This document shows, in pieces, positions 1 to 5,993 of a DNA stretch of 46,945 nucleotides. The notes beneath the pieces are model-generated. The model was not told where the DNA came from, searched no databases, and was given only the letters and a program-made list of their open reading frames with translations. Origin of the DNA: Acidimicrobiales bacterium (GTDB taxonomy: Bacteria > Actinomycetota > Acidimicrobiia > Spongiisociales > ZC4RG35); contig JAGFIR010000137.1 in NCBI GenBank assembly GCA_024103415.1, positions 1 to 46,945 on the forward strand. Direction: 5' to 3'. Within the stretch, counting starts at the first letter, position 1. The number at the start of each line of letters is the position of its first letter. The position numbers and the translations under genes were made by a program.

Positions 1-186
1 GCCGACGCGGTCAGGGCTGCGGGGCGGATCACGGCCACGCTGCCCCGTTTCGCCTCAGCCCTGCACAAGGACCCGAGGGCGCCCCAGAACCTGTACCCGA
101 TCGGCGGTCTGGAGCGCGAGCTCCGCCACCGTCTCGGCGACCGGGACCTTGCGGTCAGGGCCCTCCGCCGCGCCGCGGCGGCCTAG
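1..186 (+). CDS. C-terminal end of a protein cut by the window start; possibly NurA-like nuclease
   Basis: An open frame runs in from the window edge and stops with TAG at 184-186, giving the last 61 residues. The tail is Arg/Leu rich and contains HKDPRAPQNLYPIGGLE followed by a helical LRHRLGD segment. From memory this resembles the C-terminus of actinobacterial proteins annotated as NurA-type double-strand-break repair nucleases, but the catalytic part lies outside the window, so the name is tentative. The base composition matches the high-G+C core, so this gene belongs to the chromosome backbone. Its stop codon overlaps the stop of an EamA 3' fragment on the other strand (CTAG), which fits an ancestral convergent pair. 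Confidence 0.55.
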   Translation, partial: ADAVRAAGRITATLPRFASALHKDPRAPQNLYPIGGLERELRHRLGDRDLAVRALRRAAAA

Positions 187-280
187 CCGCGCGCTGCTGC
201 CAGTTCCGGAGTCGCCGGCACCGGGCGCTCCCGGCGGGAGGCGAGCAAGGCTCCGACGAGGACCAGTGCGATGCCGGCGA
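182..280 (-). pseudogene. Displaced 3' fragment of an EamA transporter gene (repeat copy 1)
   Basis: Read on the minus strand, this segment encodes a C-terminal tail including GIALVLVGALLASRRER and ending in LAAARG and a stop at 183-185. It matches, with one extra codon and a few substitutions, the last ~32 residues of the intact EamA protein encoded at 5058-5993. At the DNA level about 88 of 96 aligned bases agree between 182-280 and 5057-5152. Homology ends abruptly near 281, and no membrane domain or start codon lies upstream of it. It is best read as the original 3' end of the EamA gene, displaced when the island between the two copies integrated; a decayed second EamA gene is the alternative. 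Confidence 0.8.
182..280. repeat. Direct repeat copy 1, left boundary of island
   Basis: This is the left copy of an imperfect direct repeat that starts exactly at CCTAGCCGCG and has its partner at 5057-5152. The copies differ by about 8 substitutions and one 3-nt gap. It lies at the junction between the high-G+C partial gene on the left and the lower-G+C accessory block on the right, so it is a candidate attachment-site remnant. Confidence 0.75.
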
Positions 281-388
281 CCGCAATTAGCCGGTCGAGT
301 TCGGCGCACGCCGCCGTTGGCTCGCCTGTAGTAGCCAGCGGCGAGGTCGGGAAAGCGCTGGACCTCGCCGATGTTCAAGTGACGCAGC
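281..388. other. Short non-coding stretch inside left island boundary
   Basis: Between the EamA fragment and the lipoprotein gene there is no convincing gene. Minus-strand frames are open across part of it, but composition and length do not support a protein. It may be element-derived sequence next to the attachment site. Confidence 0.4.
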
Positions 389-1243
389 CTATTCATTGGA
401 GATTCGCACAGGTGGAGAGGCGATAACTCCCGATCCATCCTCTCCGGACTGCCATCCGACCTTCACCGCCACAAGCCGGAAAGTGCCATCTGAAGGTTTG
501 GGCTGTACGGCGACATGGAGCCCGGTCCCCTCTGTCGCCGGAATGGATTTGATAGCACTCAGGTCCAGTTCGCCGTTGTGTAACTGCAAGAGGACGCGTT
601 CGCTAGGGCAGACTCCGGCTGTGAGCAAGACCTCGTCGTTTGCAGCGACTTGTCCATCGATTGTCGCATAGCTCACAGCGGGGAGACCGCACCCTGAGTG
701 GGGCCCCCTCATTAGTCTGGCCTCAAGAGGTTCGAGGTGAGACGTTGAGCAATGCGAGCCCGACGTCGCCGAACCAACGAGGTCGGCCCTTCCCGTCACA
801 CCTTCGCCGGGGTCGGGGAGGAAATCGCTTGAAGGAAACCATTGGTTGATGGTCACTACGCAGTGTTCCCCTGGCTCCAAGTCGACTTCGACTGCAAACT
901 CCCACCACTCCTCCGCGCCCTCTTGATTGGGGAGCCGAGCCACGACAGGTTCGAACGTGTAGAGATCTTGAAAGTCGACCAGGATGAGGGAGCGGAGTTC
1001 ATACTCGACCTCCTCCGGGCAGAAGTCGGCAAGGCACACGGCGACATACCGGATCATGGTCGCCTTGGCCACCAGACGTGTCAGGCCTTGATCCGTCAAG
1101 GAGTACTCAAAGCCAACCCCGGCGGCATTCGTGATCTGAGTAGGTGCAGGGTCTAGTGGTGTCGAAGGTGTGACATTCGGCGTCTGGGCGACGCATGCCC
1201 CGACTATGAGCGCCAGCATCGCAGCCACAGCTGAGCGCCTCAC
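389..1243 (-). CDS. Putative secreted lipoprotein of unknown function
   Basis: This encodes 284 residues from a GTG start. The N-terminus (MRRSAVAAMLALIVGAC) is a short lipoprotein signal peptide with the lipobox VGAC and Cys17 as lipidation site. The next ~20 residues are rich in Thr, Pro and Ser, a usual tether. The rest has several Cys residues (C70 and C75 in CLADFC, others near 135-200 and the CPSE motif near 215) and predicted beta-rich sequence, with no catalytic motif I recognise. The gene sits 34 nt downstream of the secreted protein at 1278-1838 on the same strand, so the two are probably cotranscribed. Lower G+C than the core genes fits the island. Function unknown; it is probably an extracytoplasmic surface protein. 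Confidence 0.7.
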   Translation of the reverse strand: MRRSAVAAMLALIVGACVAQTPNVTPSTPLDPAPTQITNAAGVGFEYSLTDQGLTRLVAKATMIRYVAVCLADFCPEEVEYELRSLILVDFQDLYTFEPVVARLPNQEGAEEWWEFAVEVDLEPGEHCVVTINQWFPSSDFLPDPGEGVTGRADLVGSATSGSHCSTSHLEPLEARLMRGPHSGCGLPAVSYATIDGQVAANDEVLLTAGVCPSERVLLQLHNGELDLSAIKSIPATEGTGLHVAVQPKPSDGTFRLVAVKVGWQSGEDGSGVIASPPVRISNE

Positions 1244-1277
1244 GGGGATGCGCCGCCCACCGCTTCTGTCGGTTTAC

Positions 1278-1838
1278 TCAAAGGTTGTGACAGATGTCGG
1301 TGCTACCGTCCTGACCCGCGAAGTAGTTCACCCCTCCTGCTGTCCACTCGTGTGCGCCAGCGTTACCCCACGAATTGTGGAAGCCCCGCCAGTGGAGTTC
1401 GTCATACGTTTGCCAGGTGGAAGTGTTGATCCCGGTCTTGGTGAACGTGTCAATCTGTTGGCCCTCCCTCCAAGTGGCACCGCAATTGTTCGGCTTGATG
1501 ATTGCGCCGTGTACATGGACCCTGGCGACAACAGCGTCAACTCTGGATTCCCGCAAGAAGCGAACGTGGAGGAAGGCAGGCCAGATTCCCCATGCTGCAA
1601 TGCAGCCAGGGCAGGCGGCCTGTAGTAAGGCCCCTTCGCCTAGGTCGGGCGCCGCTGGCTGAGTTGTCGGTGTTGTTGACCCCTCGCTTCCATCGTCGGC
1701 GGTGGCCACCATCGGCAACGACCAGACCAACGAGAGAAGGACGCCAAGGGACACGACGCGGAGCCATTGAGCCCTCCACGCGGCGTCGCCTCGATCCACG
1801 ATTCGGGGATGGCTCTCGGCTCGTTCTTGTTGGGGCAT
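1278..1838 (-). CDS. Putative Sec-secreted protein of unknown function
   Basis: I place the start at the ATG at 1836-1838 because AAGGAGA lies 5 nt upstream; the frame stays open to 1952 but has no better ribosome site. The 186-residue product begins with a charged N-terminus, then a hydrophobic segment (VVSLGVLLSLVWSLPMVATA) that looks like a signal peptide with cleavage after ATA. A Thr/Pro-rich linker follows, then a domain with AACPGCIAAWGIWP, WREGQQIDTFTK and a Trp/His-rich C-terminus (ELHWRGFHNSWG, HEWTAGGVNYF). The even spacing of Trp and Gly suggests a small beta-sheet fold. I do not recognise a family. It is upstream of the lipoprotein gene in an apparent two-gene operon inside the island. 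Confidence 0.65.
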   Translation of the reverse strand: MPQQERAESHPRIVDRGDAAWRAQWLRVVSLGVLLSLVWSLPMVATADDGSEGSTTPTTQPAAPDLGEGALLQAACPGCIAAWGIWPAFLHVRFLRESRVDAVVARVHVHGAIIKPNNCGATWREGQQIDTFTKTGINTSTWQTYDELHWRGFHNSWGNAGAHEWTAGGVNYFAGQDGSTDICHNL

Positions 1839-1842
1839 GGTC

Positions 1843-1849
1843 GTCTCCT
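1843..1849 (-). promoter_or_regulatory. Ribosome binding site that fixes the start at 1838
   Basis: On the minus strand AAGGAGA ends 4-5 nt before the ATG at 1836-1838. It is one of the few strong Shine-Dalgarno sequences in the window and argues against the longer frame that starts at 1952. Confidence 0.6.
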
Positions 1850-2031
1850 TAATCTGGTCTCCCCGCCTCGAAGGTCTATTTGTCGTGGGGACCCGGAATA
1901 TTCCCTCGGATTGCGGAGGGTCACGGCCTAGTGGTGCGTCGCGATGAATCACCCCGGGTTTCGTACGGGCTTTGATATTCCCCCGGTTCTGAGGCGTCGA
2001 GATATCTGAATCTTGTGTGCTGACTCGTGAA

Positions 2032-2130
2032 GGAGGTCCGAAGATGCCGAAGAGATGCTCGCTTGAGTTCCGCGGGTCCTCAACCTTGGTTGGTGCTGGG
2101 AGAAGTCGTCAAAGACATCGATGGTCTTGA
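2032..2130 (+). pseudogene. Possible decayed start of an IS3-type transposase orfA
   Basis: AAGGAGGTCCGAAG is followed by an ATG at 2044 whose product begins MPKRCSLEFR, resembling the MPKRxxxEFR start of many IS3-family OrfA proteins. The expected VLNL and VGAGRS continuation appears only if the frame changes between codons, and the frame stops soon after. No OrfB, DDE motif or terminal inverted repeats were found. If real, it is a small frameshifted scrap; the resemblance is short and could be chance. Confidence 0.3.
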
Positions 2131-2543
2131 ACAGGGCCAGCCCGTCCTTGCCGGTACCGCACAACGCTGGTCGTCCACCGCAAGAGGAGCAAGTCGTGAA
2201 TGCACGTTAATGCGCTCGCCGGCGGTCGTCCCGAGCAGCCCTGCCGCGCTCAGACAGGCCATGAGGAATGTGCTCTAGCCCGTGCCTCCCTGGACGGCTA
2301 GTGACCGTGTCGCGTCAGGCGTAAGGAACGGGTTCGAATGCGTTGTGCATGAGCTTCTTCCTCCTTCGGTTCGACTACGGGTTACGCCTCTTCATGGTTT
2401 GGTCTAGCAGGCAGGAATCTTCCCGTTTTCGTTCGCGAGAACTCCCTGCCGTCGCACGGCAAGCACTCTCACTCGCTGTAGGGGTGGGTACGCGCCAAGG
2501 TGAAGTGTTCCGGGGGCAGAGTCGAGATGGACGCTTAACGGAT

Positions 2544-2569
2544 GACCCTGGGGTATCGGCCCAGGGGTC
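2544..2569 (+). terminator. Terminator-like hairpin
   Basis: GACC-CTGGG and CCCAG-GGGTC can pair around the loop GTATCGG with one bulged base, followed by a pyrimidine-rich CTTCTTC tract. It lacks a true T run, so it may terminate only weakly, and there is no clear upstream gene for it to end. Confidence 0.35.
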
Positions 2570-2595
2570 CTTCTTCGTGTGCTGGGAATAAAAGG

Positions 2596-2620
2596 GCCGT
2601 TCTCAACAAAGTAGAACGGC
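2596..2620 (+). promoter_or_regulatory. Perfect 8-bp inverted repeat upstream of secreted protein gene
   Basis: GCCGTTCT (2596-2603) and AGAACGGC (2613-2620) form a perfect stem with a 9-nt loop, ending 20 nt before the GTG at 2641. It could be a leader hairpin controlling translation or an operator. It might also be a remnant repeat end from mobile DNA. Confidence 0.4.
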
Positions 2621-2640
2621 ACAACGAAATGGAGCCACAC

Positions 2641-3168
2641 GTGTTCAGGTCCGTATTGGTCGTCCTAGTGATCGTCTCGGCCGCCAGCCCTACCCACAAC
2701 GGTGACGTAGTCGACTCCGCCGAGGAGACCCATTGCGTAGTAGTTGTCGTCGACCAGCGCGAATCGGGAGAGTTCGTCCTATCGGAGCCGGAATGCTTCC
2801 GCTCAACGGGCGAGGCCGACGAGTGGGCCGCGTCTGCGGAGCCAGCAGCTCTCGTTCAACACGGCGAGACTGAGAGCAAGCCGATCCTACAGATGTCGAC
2901 GTCCACCCTGGGACGCCACTTTGACGGCTTCAACGGGACCGGGTCCTCAATAAGTGTGATCGGAGCCAATTGCACCGGTGGGTGGTGGAACACCGGGCCC
3001 ACTTGGGCAAACCGTATCTCATCCTCGTACAACGGCTGCGCCCGGCTGCGCCACTGGGACCTCCCCAACAAAGAGGGGATGTTCGAAGACACCGTGGGGG
3101 CTGGTACAACCAAGAATCTCTCATTCATGAACAATCGGACAGAGTCGGTGTCGTACCACGGAAGCTGA
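2641..3168 (+). CDS. Secreted protein resembling peptidase-inhibitor I36 / beta-gamma-crystallin-like proteins
   Basis: The GTG at 2641 is preferred because GGAG lies 6 nt upstream; an ATG at 2629 in the same frame has none. The 175-residue product starts with a hydrophobic signal sequence (FRSVLVVLVIVSAAS). The C-terminal ~80 residues carry two loosely repeated units: ANRISSSYNGCARLRHWD and NLSFMNNRTESVSY. The N-R-x-S-S/S-V pattern with aromatic and Gly positions is typical of small secreted actinobacterial proteins with a beta/gamma-crystallin-like fold, some annotated as peptidase inhibitor family I36. Two Cys may form a disulfide. It lies 39 nt before an ECF sigma gene. Fold assignment is by pattern only. 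Confidence 0.6.
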   Translation: MFRSVLVVLVIVSAASPTHNGDVVDSAEETHCVVVVVDQRESGEFVLSEPECFRSTGEADEWAASAEPAALVQHGETESKPILQMSTSTLGRHFDGFNGTGSSISVIGANCTGGWWNTGPTWANRISSSYNGCARLRHWDLPNKEGMFEDTVGAGTTKNLSFMNNRTESVSYHGS

Positions 3169-3207
3169 CCACTGACAGAATGCAAGCCGGAACTACCGTG
3201 GGAGGCG

Positions 3208-3801
3208 GTGAGTGAGGATTGTCCAACCGACGCTCAGATCATCGCACTATCCCTGGATCATCCCTCGGAGTTCGGTGAGATCTTCAAAAGACATCGAGTC
3301 GCCATTTACAAGTTCGCAGCGAAACGAGTTGGCCCCCAGGATGCCGAGGACGTGGTCTCAAGAGTCTTCGAGAAGGCGTTCTCGGTAAGGGAAAGGTACG
3401 CGGTTGATCGATCCAACTGTCTTCCTTGGCTATATGGGATCGCCGTCAACGTGGTGGGCGACCACATCCGAAAGCAACGGGTCGCCATCTACGTGTACCC
3501 AATCGATCAGGTCGAGGGCCAGGTCGCGGGGTCCGACCCCTCCCCCGAAGCCGAAGTGCTGAACGCAGGACTCAGCGACGATCTCAATGAAGCGCTCTCG
3601 CGGCTCCCTGTCACTAGCCGTGATGCGCTACTCCTCCACGTCCTTGAAGAGATGAGCTATGTCGAGATCTCAGAGGCGCTGGAGGTTCCCATCGCGACAG
3701 TCGGGTCAAAGATCCATCGGGCTAAACGAAAGCTAGTGACTCTCCTCGGTGAGATCACGAATCCAGGATCTGACTCACAGGAAGAGGAGGTCGGGTATTA
3801 G
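3208..3801 (+). CDS. ECF-type RNA polymerase sigma factor
   Basis: The 197-residue protein has the two-domain plan of a group 4 sigma factor. Region 2 covers about residues 20-90 (EIFKRHRVAIYKFAAKRVG, then AEDVVSRVFEKAF and the LPWLYGIAVNVVGDHIRK helix). Region 4 covers about residues 130-180 (LSRLPVTSRDALLLHVLEE, then the helix-turn-helix YVEISEALEVPIATVGSKIHRAKRKL). GTG at 3208 is the most upstream sensible start; GGAGG at 3201-3205 is only 2 nt away, which is tight. It directs core polymerase to a dedicated promoter set. The partner gene overlaps its 3' end, the usual sigma/regulator pairing. It lies within the island, so its regulon could include the neighbouring secreted proteins. Confidence 0.9.
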   Translation: MSEDCPTDAQIIALSLDHPSEFGEIFKRHRVAIYKFAAKRVGPQDAEDVVSRVFEKAFSVRERYAVDRSNCLPWLYGIAVNVVGDHIRKQRVAIYVYPIDQVEGQVAGSDPSPEAEVLNAGLSDDLNEALSRLPVTSRDALLLHVLEEMSYVEISEALEVPIATVGSKIHRAKRKLVTLLGEITNPGSDSQEEEVGY

Positions 3802-4777
3802 AGAGTTCGAACCAATCGAGGACGCACTCCGCACCGTCACCGGCGATCCAGAGCCGGGGCCGAACTCATTCGACCTGGCCGCCGCGTCGCTGGAGGCGCG
3901 CATGTCCGGGCCACGCCCGAGCAAACTGTCCCCGCGATCCAAGTGGTCGTTCGGCGCGGTCGCAGTCGGAATCCCACTAGCCGTTGGCCTCGCGCTCCTC
4001 ATCCCGCCAGCTCTCCGAGTGTCAGAAGTACGGGCGGCTGTCGAAGGGGTCGCCAGGGCGACCGAACTTGTCGAACCGGCCACGATCACCGGAACCGAGT
4101 TCTTCTACGTGAAGACCACCAGGTCCGACCTCGGGGTGCTCCCAGCTGACTTGCTTGAGGACACCCCATACGACGGCGACGTTCTCGTCGGTCTCTTCCC
4201 CGTGACTAGAGAGACCTGGTACGGAAGAGCCGGAGCCGTCCAAATCCGAAGCGTCCGCCTACCGCCGACGTTCTTCAGCCCCGATGCCGAATCTGCCTAT
4301 TACGACGCGGGTCTGGACGAGATGGATCAGATTGGAGTGGTTGAGACTGAAACGGTCACATTGCCGACCCCGCCCCGCCAGTGGCCCGAAGACCCGAAGG
4401 AGCTAATCGAACTGCTCAAGTCCGAGGCCTCAACGGGACGAGATTTGCCTGAAGAAGTCGAGCAACTGGAGTCCGGTCTCAGACTCCTCCGCGATGCCTT
4501 CGCTACACCCATCCAACGAGCAACCGTACTGAGGTGGATCGGAAACCTTGCCGGAATGCAGCTGGCTGAAACCAAAGGCGGCGCACTCGCGCTAGCTGGC
4601 GAGTACATGGACGCTGGTATGCCAACCCAGTTCTTGATCGAATTCGACCAAGAAGGATGGCTGATCGCCGAGCAGCGCACCGTCCTCCACGACGGGTTCG
4701 CACCCGGCGTACCGGCAGGTACCGCCGTTTCTTCAGCGACCTACTCCAAGCCGGTCATCGTCAGGACTCTCGAATAG
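3749..4777 (+). CDS. Membrane-anchored CU044_5270-like protein, probable anti-sigma partner
   Basis: The frame runs 342 residues from a GTG at 3749 that lies inside the sigma gene and has no ribosome site. A strong GAGGAGG (3784-3790) stands 6 nt before an ATT at 3797, which overlaps the sigma stop (ATTAG); starting there gives 326 residues. After a cytosolic N-terminus, one transmembrane segment (SFGAVAVGIPLAVGLALLIPPAL) leads to a large extracytoplasmic domain with FYVKTTRSDLG, ETWYGRAGAVQ, LPTPPRQWPEDPKELIELL, and a C-terminal EFDQEGWLIAEQRTVL. Order and layout match the CU044_5270-type proteins next to actinobacterial ECF sigma genes. I see no zinc-binding anti-sigma motif (HxxxCxxC), so the anti-sigma role is inferred from position. 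Confidence 0.7.
   Translation: MRSRIQDLTHRKRRSGIREFEPIEDALRTVTGDPEPGPNSFDLAAASLEARMSGPRPSKLSPRSKWSFGAVAVGIPLAVGLALLIPPALRVSEVRAAVEGVARATELVEPATITGTEFFYVKTTRSDLGVLPADLLEDTPYDGDVLVGLFPVTRETWYGRAGAVQIRSVRLPPTFFSPDAESAYYDAGLDEMDQIGVVETETVTLPTPPRQWPEDPKELIELLKSEASTGRDLPEEVEQLESGLRLLRDAFATPIQRATVLRWIGNLAGMQLAETKGGALALAGEYMDAGMPTQFLIEFDQEGWLIAEQRTVLHDGFAPGVPAGTAVSSATYSKPVIVRTLE
3784..3799 (+). promoter_or_regulatory. Shine-Dalgarno positioned for a candidate ATT start
   Basis: GAGGAGG ends 6 nt before ATT (3797-3799), and the ATT shares its last base with the TAG of the sigma gene. The geometry is that of a translationally coupled start, except that the codon is ATT rather than ATG or GTG. Confidence 0.4.
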
Positions 4778-5057
4778 GACCAGTGTCTCCGATACGCGAT
4801 ATCGATGCCCAACAGCGGAAGGCTTGAGACAGTAGATCCACCAACGGACGGGCTCCGCGTGTTGAGCGGGCTCTTAGATTCTCGGTTCATTGTTGGAGCC
4901 GGTGCGGGCGATGGGGGTGGCGTTGAGGAACCGCTTCTCGTCTACTCCAATCGCAAGGGAACCCGGTTACGGACTATGCGGAGTGGAGCGGACGGGCCTG
5001 GTGGTGGATCGAATTGATCCTCTCTGAACCCGACCTCCCCTACGACAGCACCCAGAC
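4778..5057. other. Intergenic stretch at the right end of the island
   Basis: No complete gene is supported. A 70-codon frame at 4805-5017 lacks a ribosome site and recognisable sequence. The second half carries the orphan C-terminal frame described at 4927-5061. Confidence 0.5.
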
Positions 5058-5061
5058 CTAG
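4927..5061 (+). pseudogene. Orphan C-terminal coding tail, source unknown
   Basis: After a stop at 4924-4926, a frame of 44 codons runs to TAG at 5059-5061. It contains TDYAEWSGRAWWWIELIL and SEPDLPYDSTQT, which looks protein-like (Trp-rich amphipathic helix, then an acidic tail). There is no start codon with a ribosome site. Its stop overlaps the EamA stop (CTAG) in the same way as the partial gene ending at 186. It may be the truncated end of an element gene brought to the junction; it could also be chance. Confidence 0.3.
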
Positions 5062-5152
5062 CCGCGGGCTGCGGCCGGTTCCGGAGTCGCCACCTGGCGC
5101 TCGCGGCGGGAGGCGAGGAAGGCCCCGACGAGGACCAGCGCGATGCCGGCGA
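5057..5152. repeat. Direct repeat copy 2, right boundary of island
   Basis: This is the right copy of the imperfect repeat at 182-280. It forms the last ~95 bases of the intact EamA gene. Together the copies bracket about 4.8 kb of accessory DNA, as expected if an element carrying a replacement 3' end recombined into the gene. Confidence 0.75.
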
Positions 5153-5993
5153 GTGCCAGCGGGCTGATCACCTCGTCACGGAAGACGATCCCGAGGATCA
5201 GGGCCACCACGGGGATGACATAGGCGACGAAAGAACTGCGGGTGGCGCCAATGGAGGCACCCATCCGACCGGCGATTAGGAAGGCGATTCCGGTTCCGAA
5301 CAGGCCGACGGCCACGGTGGCGGCGAGGGAAGGCACTGAGAACCCCGATTGGGTCAGGCCGTAGATCCCGTAGGGCAGAACCATCGGGACGGCCGCCCAG
5401 ATCACGCGGCTCATCACCGGCAGCGACCCGTACTTCTGGTTGAGCGGGACCGAGAGGTTGATCGACACGCCGTACGCCGCTGCGGCGATGAGTGCGAGCA
5501 GGATGCCTATCGCCTCGTTGCTGCTCGAGTTGATCGACGGCCAGGCGATGAGGACCACCCCGCCCAGGCCCATGAGCAGGCCGACTCGCTGCATGCGGCC
5601 CGGCAATGTGCGGAGGAGGATCGACGCCACGAGCGTGGCGAAGATCGGGGTGGTGCCATTGATCAGCCCGGCGACTCCGGAGGCGATCCACTGTTGGGCG
5701 ATCGGGAACATCGTGAACGGCAGCGCCACCCAGGTGAACCCGACGAGCACCACGCGCCAGCGGTCCTCGCGATCGATCCGGCTCCGGCGGATTCGCGGGA
5801 TCGACCAGAGGAAGGCCGATGCCGCCACGATCCGGAGCAGGGCCACGAAGCCCGGGTGGAAGGAATCGAGACCGATCGCCATCAGGAGGAACGACGAGCC
5901 CCAGATGAGCCCGAGCGTGCCGAACATCGCCCAATCGGTCGGGGTGAATGCGTCGCGGTTGGTGCCGTGAGAAGTGGTGATGAGTCGCGTCAC
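5058..5993 (-). CDS. EamA/DMT-family membrane transporter
   Basis: This encodes 311 residues from a GTG start, with about ten hydrophobic segments arranged as two EamA repeats. The first repeat includes TLGLIWGSSFLLMAIGL and the LLRIVAASAFLW helix; the second begins near residue 165 (AIGILLALIAAAAYGVSINLS) and ends with ALAGIALVLVGAFLASRRER. Length and layout match drug/metabolite exporters of the inner membrane; the substrate cannot be read from sequence. It lies 45 nt upstream of nothing on its own strand but downstream of gpsA (stop 6039), so it may share the gpsA transcript. Its last ~30 codons are duplicated as a fragment at 182-280, implying that its present 3' end came with the island. 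Confidence 0.9.
   Translation of the reverse strand: MTRLITTSHGTNRDAFTPTDWAMFGTLGLIWGSSFLLMAIGLDSFHPGFVALLRIVAASAFLWSIPRIRRSRIDREDRWRVVLVGFTWVALPFTMFPIAQQWIASGVAGLINGTTPIFATLVASILLRTLPGRMQRVGLLMGLGGVVLIAWPSINSSSNEAIGILLALIAAAAYGVSINLSVPLNQKYGSLPVMSRVIWAAVPMVLPYGIYGLTQSGFSVPSLAATVAVGLFGTGIAFLIAGRMGASIGATRSSFVAYVIPVVALILGIVFRDEVISPLALAGIALVLVGAFLASRRERQVATPEPAAARG

Follow-up and report, generated by a model that had tools for sequence, protein, structure and literature searches.

The window analysed here is the whole of a contig (C171; 46,945 nucleotides) from a 2.2-Mb assembly of 234 contigs that is 96% complete. Near the left end of this contig, a segment of accessory genes separates two convergent genes. 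The contig begins within the first of these, a NurA-like gene, 183 bases ahead of its stop codon, leaving a left flank of 186 bases; a search of the assembly did not recover the remainder of the gene. The assignment to NurA is weak, as the homologue from a genome of the same genus (G001) scored 14.7 bits against a Pfam cut-off of 21 bits. The right flank is a complete gene for an EamA (DMT) transporter of 311 amino acids (PF00892, E = 1.7e-27), whose nearest named relatives are metagenome bins of Acidimicrobiia with 50% identity at best; the genome is therefore probably a member of this class. Beyond it lie GpsA, YchF and GcvP. Sixty relatives were searched with EamA and the NurA-like tail and their loci were extracted; the order GcvP-YchF-GpsA-EamA-NurA-like is kept in most of them. 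The window holds no tRNA, and a tRNA-associated island was rejected on that ground. The features of the locus are listed in Table 1.

Table 1. Features of the EamA/NurA-like locus at the left end of the window.
Feature	Position	Strand	Basis or remark
NurA-like gene, last 61 codons (left flank)	1..186	+	95% amino acid identity to the G001 homologue (same genus), which directly abuts EamA
EamA 3' tail, displaced (left copy), 99 nt	182..280	-	Repeat search and alignment
Inserted accessory segment, about 4.78 kb	281..5056		Lower GC; absent from 12 empty-site relatives
ORFA, putative lipoprotein, no family	389..1243	-	Signal with VGAC lipobox, by eye
ORFB, putative secreted protein, no family	1278..1838	-	Homologue in G026:C53
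Gene-free stretch, 790 bases	1839..2628		Six-frame Pfam scan empty
ORFC, putative secreted protein	2629..3168	+	Strongly conserved C-terminal half
ECF-type sigma factor	3208..3801	+	Sigma70_r2 and r4_2; TIGR02937 89.9 bits
Membrane partner of sigma factor, exact start uncertain	3749..4777	+	36% homologue in G000:C8
EamA 3' tail in intact gene (right copy), 96 nt	5057..5152	-	Repeat search and alignment
EamA (DMT) transporter gene, intact (right flank)	5058..5993	-	Pfam PF00892 and conserved gene order

The cargo is compositionally foreign. Its genes have 57-62% G+C between backbone genes of 67-70%, and GC3 ranges from 0.65 to 0.74 across its five genes, whereas the genes on either side reach 0.89-0.91. 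It consists of two ordinary accessory modules, a lipoprotein/secreted protein pair and a triplet of secreted protein, ECF sigma factor and membrane partner, and relatives of both are located away from EamA in other genomes. Homologues of ORFA and ORFB are adjacent on contig C53 of genome G026 (33% and 41%, respectively), where they lie between frames resembling ISL3 and IS110 transposases (L152:4324-5576). The gene-free stretch that follows this pair in the islet has no second copy in the genome and is the only sizeable room for a lost recombinase. The triplet is found in the same order in three unrelated places (2629-4777, L151:6978-9137 and L153:5786-7929). On contig C8 of this genome (G000) and contig C8 of G015, away from EamA, its members resemble those of the islet at 52% for ORFC (52-53% identity in the separate comparison of that protein), 40-43% for the sigma factor and 31-34% for the membrane protein.

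The sigma factor has both the region 2 and the region 4 domains above cut-off (TIGR02937). Its membrane partner matches no Pfam or NCBIfam model, and relatives of it occur in a further 22 genomes of the order. It is predicted to consist of an N-terminal region, a transmembrane helix and an outer domain that weakly resembles LolA, LprG, LppX and RseB, with a best Foldseek E of 1.1e-3 and VIA Z scores of 6-7 among many unrelated rows. This protein may be an anti-sigma factor or sensor, and the triplet may represent an ECF sigma/sensor pairing that is as yet undescribed. A different sigma system is regulated by RseB and MucB; for the islet this is a lead rather than a result.

A direct repeat of the EamA 3' end brackets the segment. 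The repeat search returned it as two matches, 182-216/5057-5091 and 216-280/5088-5152, each 91% identical; aligned as a single block, the two copies differ by eight substitutions and one 3-nt gap. The initial annotation had described direct repeats of ~92% identity, and the repeats stand with a somewhat lower value, 89% by genome search and about 90% with the gap counted. They are not a product of chance, since the interval between the NurA-like gene and EamA scored 141 against EamA, compared with no more than 35 in any of 100 shuffles. Both copies start at CCTAGCCGCG, a stretch that includes the stop codon of EamA, and a reading of the tails bore out the earlier statement that both encode the EamA C-terminus on the minus strand: the left copy ends in GIALVLVGALLASRRERPVPATPELAAARG and the right in GIALVLVGAFLASRRERQVATPEPAAARG, each directly before the stop. 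Also as described there, the right copy is part of an intact gene and the left lies as a displaced tail alongside a backbone gene, abutting the NurA-like end with overlapping stop codons (CTAG). The DNA similarity between the copies stops at 280, and the bases that follow in the left copy are not EamA at the DNA level; because the residues LIAVAG encoded there could nonetheless extend the EamA frame weakly, the left breakpoint is placed between about 280 and 296. At the right edge, a frame at 4871-5058 ending in DSTQT overlaps the EamA stop, in the manner of the NurA-like gene at the left copy, and has the look of a frameshifted gene end. It was considered as a truncated convergent gene (LLDSRFIVG...DSTQT) that might mark the source of the right EamA end, and was dropped for want of any match in Pfam or among 137 genomes of the order (best other E = 0.006).

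The differences between the two tails bear on their origin. Of the eight substitutions, six are third-position changes (p about 0.02 if all codon positions change at the same rate), and the gap removes one whole codon, so that most of the divergence appears to have arisen while both tails were coding. Although only eight changes are available, this pattern suggests that the tails diverged mostly as coding alleles, and hence in two genomes. To this extent the earlier reading, that the element carried its own version of the 3' end, is supported. When the changes were polarised by eye with G001 as outgroup, the left branch took four and the right branch one; on this count the left copy has likely decayed in part in place. 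The two tails are nearer to each other in alignment than either is to the single tail of G001, which indicates that the duplication is young.

An empty site is present in 12 relatives from eight genera, including the same genus (G001, G007, G008, G010, G012, G013, G015, G021, G025, G027, G029 and G031). In these genomes EamA and the NurA-like gene stand tail to tail, with stop codons -31 to +22 bases apart. In G001, whose NurA-like tail is the 95% identical homologue of Table 1, the EamA stop is three bases from the NurA-like gene. The EamA gene of G001 is broken across two contigs whose error-rich ends overlap (L063:1-130 and L064:1-170), which makes one gene look like two copies; we reject a second copy in that genome. 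Because G001 and 11 other relatives show the empty site, the ~4.8-kb insertion is the derived state and later than the split from G001. The initial annotation had called the segment an inserted accessory island and proposed that related genomes be searched for a site in which the gene ending at 186 directly adjoins EamA; the 12 empty sites and the foreign composition agree with it. The adverse case that it named, a full second EamA gene decayed in place with no empty site anywhere, did not turn up and is rejected: neither a second complete EamA nor a tandem pair occurs at the NurA-like junction in the 12 empty-site relatives or in the seven relatives in which the junction is occupied.

Those seven relatives hold 268 to 2931 bases between EamA and the NurA-like gene, and in six of them, which represent five genera, other genes fill 1.2-2.9 kb; their identity was read by inspection of reading frames. 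In G014 and G018 a membrane protein, an ECF sigma factor and a TM protein lie just downstream of EamA; these cassettes are only 29% similar to that of the islet and have the opposite orientation. Such a cassette, different from that of the islet and oppositely oriented, consists of a bPH-like membrane protein, the sigma factor and a small TM protein at L075:7833-9352 and L065:247-1887, in two other genera. The remaining fillings are an HNH/DUF222-type protein in G005 (L082:7182-8571), an alpha/beta hydrolase with a rhodanese in G004 and G020, and peptidase-like genes in G017; multi-copy HNH genes may be a mobile class in the family. Within genus g4 the site is empty in G021 and occupied in G005. 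The convergent EamA/NurA-like junction is a permissive, recurrent landing place for accessory genes. Inserted DNA is thus tolerated between these convergent gene ends. A similarity comparison against EamA detected no second EamA tail in any of the seven occupied junctions, and duplication of the tail is therefore not general.

Neither family scans of the ORFs nor a six-frame Pfam scan of the 790 gene-free bases revealed an integrase, serine recombinase, transposase or relic of one in 281-5056, in keeping with the earlier remark that no integrase is left. The three PF00589 genes of the genome are located on other contigs. Further elements with the same end beside EamA genes, which the initial annotation had proposed to look for, were absent from 34 family genomes, and the other insertions at the junction lack the tail duplicate. 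IMG/VR contained no match for EamA, ORFB or the sigma partner, phage records none for ORFB and plasmids none for ORFC; on these empty searches a phage or plasmid cargo was rejected. Transposition with a long target duplication was rejected as well, because the repeat search brought out no prominent terminal inverted repeats, no transposase or relic is present, and ~98 bases far exceeds the length of target duplications known from transposition.

A ~4.8-kb segment was inserted between convergent EamA and NurA-like genes whose ancestral order was tail to tail. We favour, with a probability of roughly 0.45 and narrowly ahead of insertion by an integrative element, a homology-assisted acquisition of a donor EamA end together with its adjoining genes. 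DNA from a related strain, in which the cargo already lay downstream of EamA, would have paired with the resident EamA gene on one side, and its opposite side would have been joined without homology. Recombination within the last ~98 bases of EamA would then have inserted the segment, with EamA receiving or keeping an intact 3' end and the tail of the other allele being pushed away, still abutting the NurA-like gene; the two tails would derive from different alleles. The 12 empty sites, the variable junction, the lack of a recombinase, the six of eight third-position changes and the occurrence of the cargo modules elsewhere are counted for this route. Donors with cargo behind EamA are plausible because the junction is variable and ECF-sigma cassettes lie downstream of EamA in G014 and G018. 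Counted against it are the mere eight substitutions behind the coding-allele argument and their 4:1 polarity, which fits decay in place; moreover, no strain with the EamA 3' allele beside the cargo was found among the 60 relatives. Also against it, the identity of EamA to its G001 homologue shows no sharp step such as a recombination edge would leave, and such as would tell the two routes apart, with 77-81% per 150-base bin as against 71-93% in the flank; G001, the only near relative, is about 20% away.

The strongest competitor, which we regard as possible though slightly less probable, is an integrative element resembling e14 in icd, whose attP carried its own EamA 3' end. Its integrase would have inserted the element, restored the gene and displaced the native tail, and would later have been deleted or have acted in trans. 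Several features of the scar speak for such an element: the repeat spans from inside EamA exactly to the stop codon, the gene is intact, the tails have diverged yet remain in frame, the duplicated gene end of e14 is comparable (PMC11148124), and the gene-free 790 bases could mark lost DNA. The islet nevertheless has no integrase or relic, no sister element with the same end was found in the 34 family genomes or, by EamA or cargo, in IMG/VR, and seven relatives have insertions at the same junction that lack a tail duplicate. Because of these other insertions, a displaced gene tail alone is no proof of an integrase. An integrase origin of the islet is possible but unproven: of the original proposal, an element that recombines into the 3' end of a gene and restores it, the form of the scar stands and the agency is conjectural. 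We consider it unlikely that the EamA 3' end serves, in these uncultured actinobacteria, as an attachment site for a family of small satellite elements that carry their own version of the tail and move the ECF-sigma cassette with an integrase supplied in trans.

Partial tandem duplication is similarly doubtful. A divergent second EamA gene beside the NurA-like gene would have been mostly deleted on arrival of the cargo, the left tail being its remnant. EamA tandem pairs are known in family f6 (G038, G051 and G058), and the left copy seems to evolve slightly faster; the 12 empty-site and seven occupied relatives, however, lack a tandem pair or second full EamA here, and the greater closeness of the tails to each other than to the G001 tail points to a young duplication. 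Least probable is an assembly artefact in which the islet was wrongly joined, at the left end of the contig, to an EamA/NurA-like end from a different strain. In its favour, the left copy lies less than 300 bases from the contig end, the remaining part of the NurA-like gene was not recovered from the assembly, and the G001 assembly has visibly corrupt contig ends. Against it, the left copy reads cleanly and in frame, with a gap of one whole codon and substitutions not shared by the right copy, the NurA-like tail shares 95% identity with that of G001, and no shared stretch that could prompt a false join was seen at 281.

Parallels to both the cargo and its scar have been described. Like known ECF sigma factors with membrane partners, the islet has a Sigma70_r2/r4_2 gene followed by a single-TM protein; it differs in that this partner fits no Pfam or NCBIfam family and its likeness to LolA, LprG and RseB is weak (Z about 6-7). 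Homology-facilitated illegitimate recombination (HFIR), in which homologous recombination on one side and an illegitimate join on the other import non-homologous DNA (PMC3240628), would leave a scar of the form found at this locus, with an intact gene end from the donor and a residual tail from the resident. HFIR has been reported from a few competent species and from conjugation in E. coli, whereas no recombination edge was located at the islet. The restored target and displaced fragment that form its endpoints also recall islands of the Islander/TIGER type, with tRNA or protein-gene attB sites (PMC4383910, PMC12884075). Islander requires an integrase within the interval (PMC4383910), and the EamA islet interval holds none.

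The closest likeness is to e14 in icd of Escherichia coli, which likewise entered near the 3' end of a protein gene, restored the gene end and left a diverged displaced tail at its far edge; the duplicated end measures 165 bp and has 12 changes, and the reading frame is intact (PMC11148124). Whereas e14 is a prophage that has a putative integrase gene, intE, the islet is a 4.8-kb cargo lacking a recombinase, with a 99-bp tail and an EamA target. The initial annotation had contrasted the transporter target with a tRNA. Integration at attB sites in protein genes is common, and the target is rebuilt by many islands (PMC12884075), so this contrast with tRNA targets carries little novelty. The islet is a young insertion with an empty site in the same genus, a duplicated protein-gene end and no recombinase in sight. 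Its scar is of a known, target-restoring kind and the protein-gene target is not new; an integrase-bearing relative, if found, would extend the list of known attB genes by one, a useful rather than a surprising addition.
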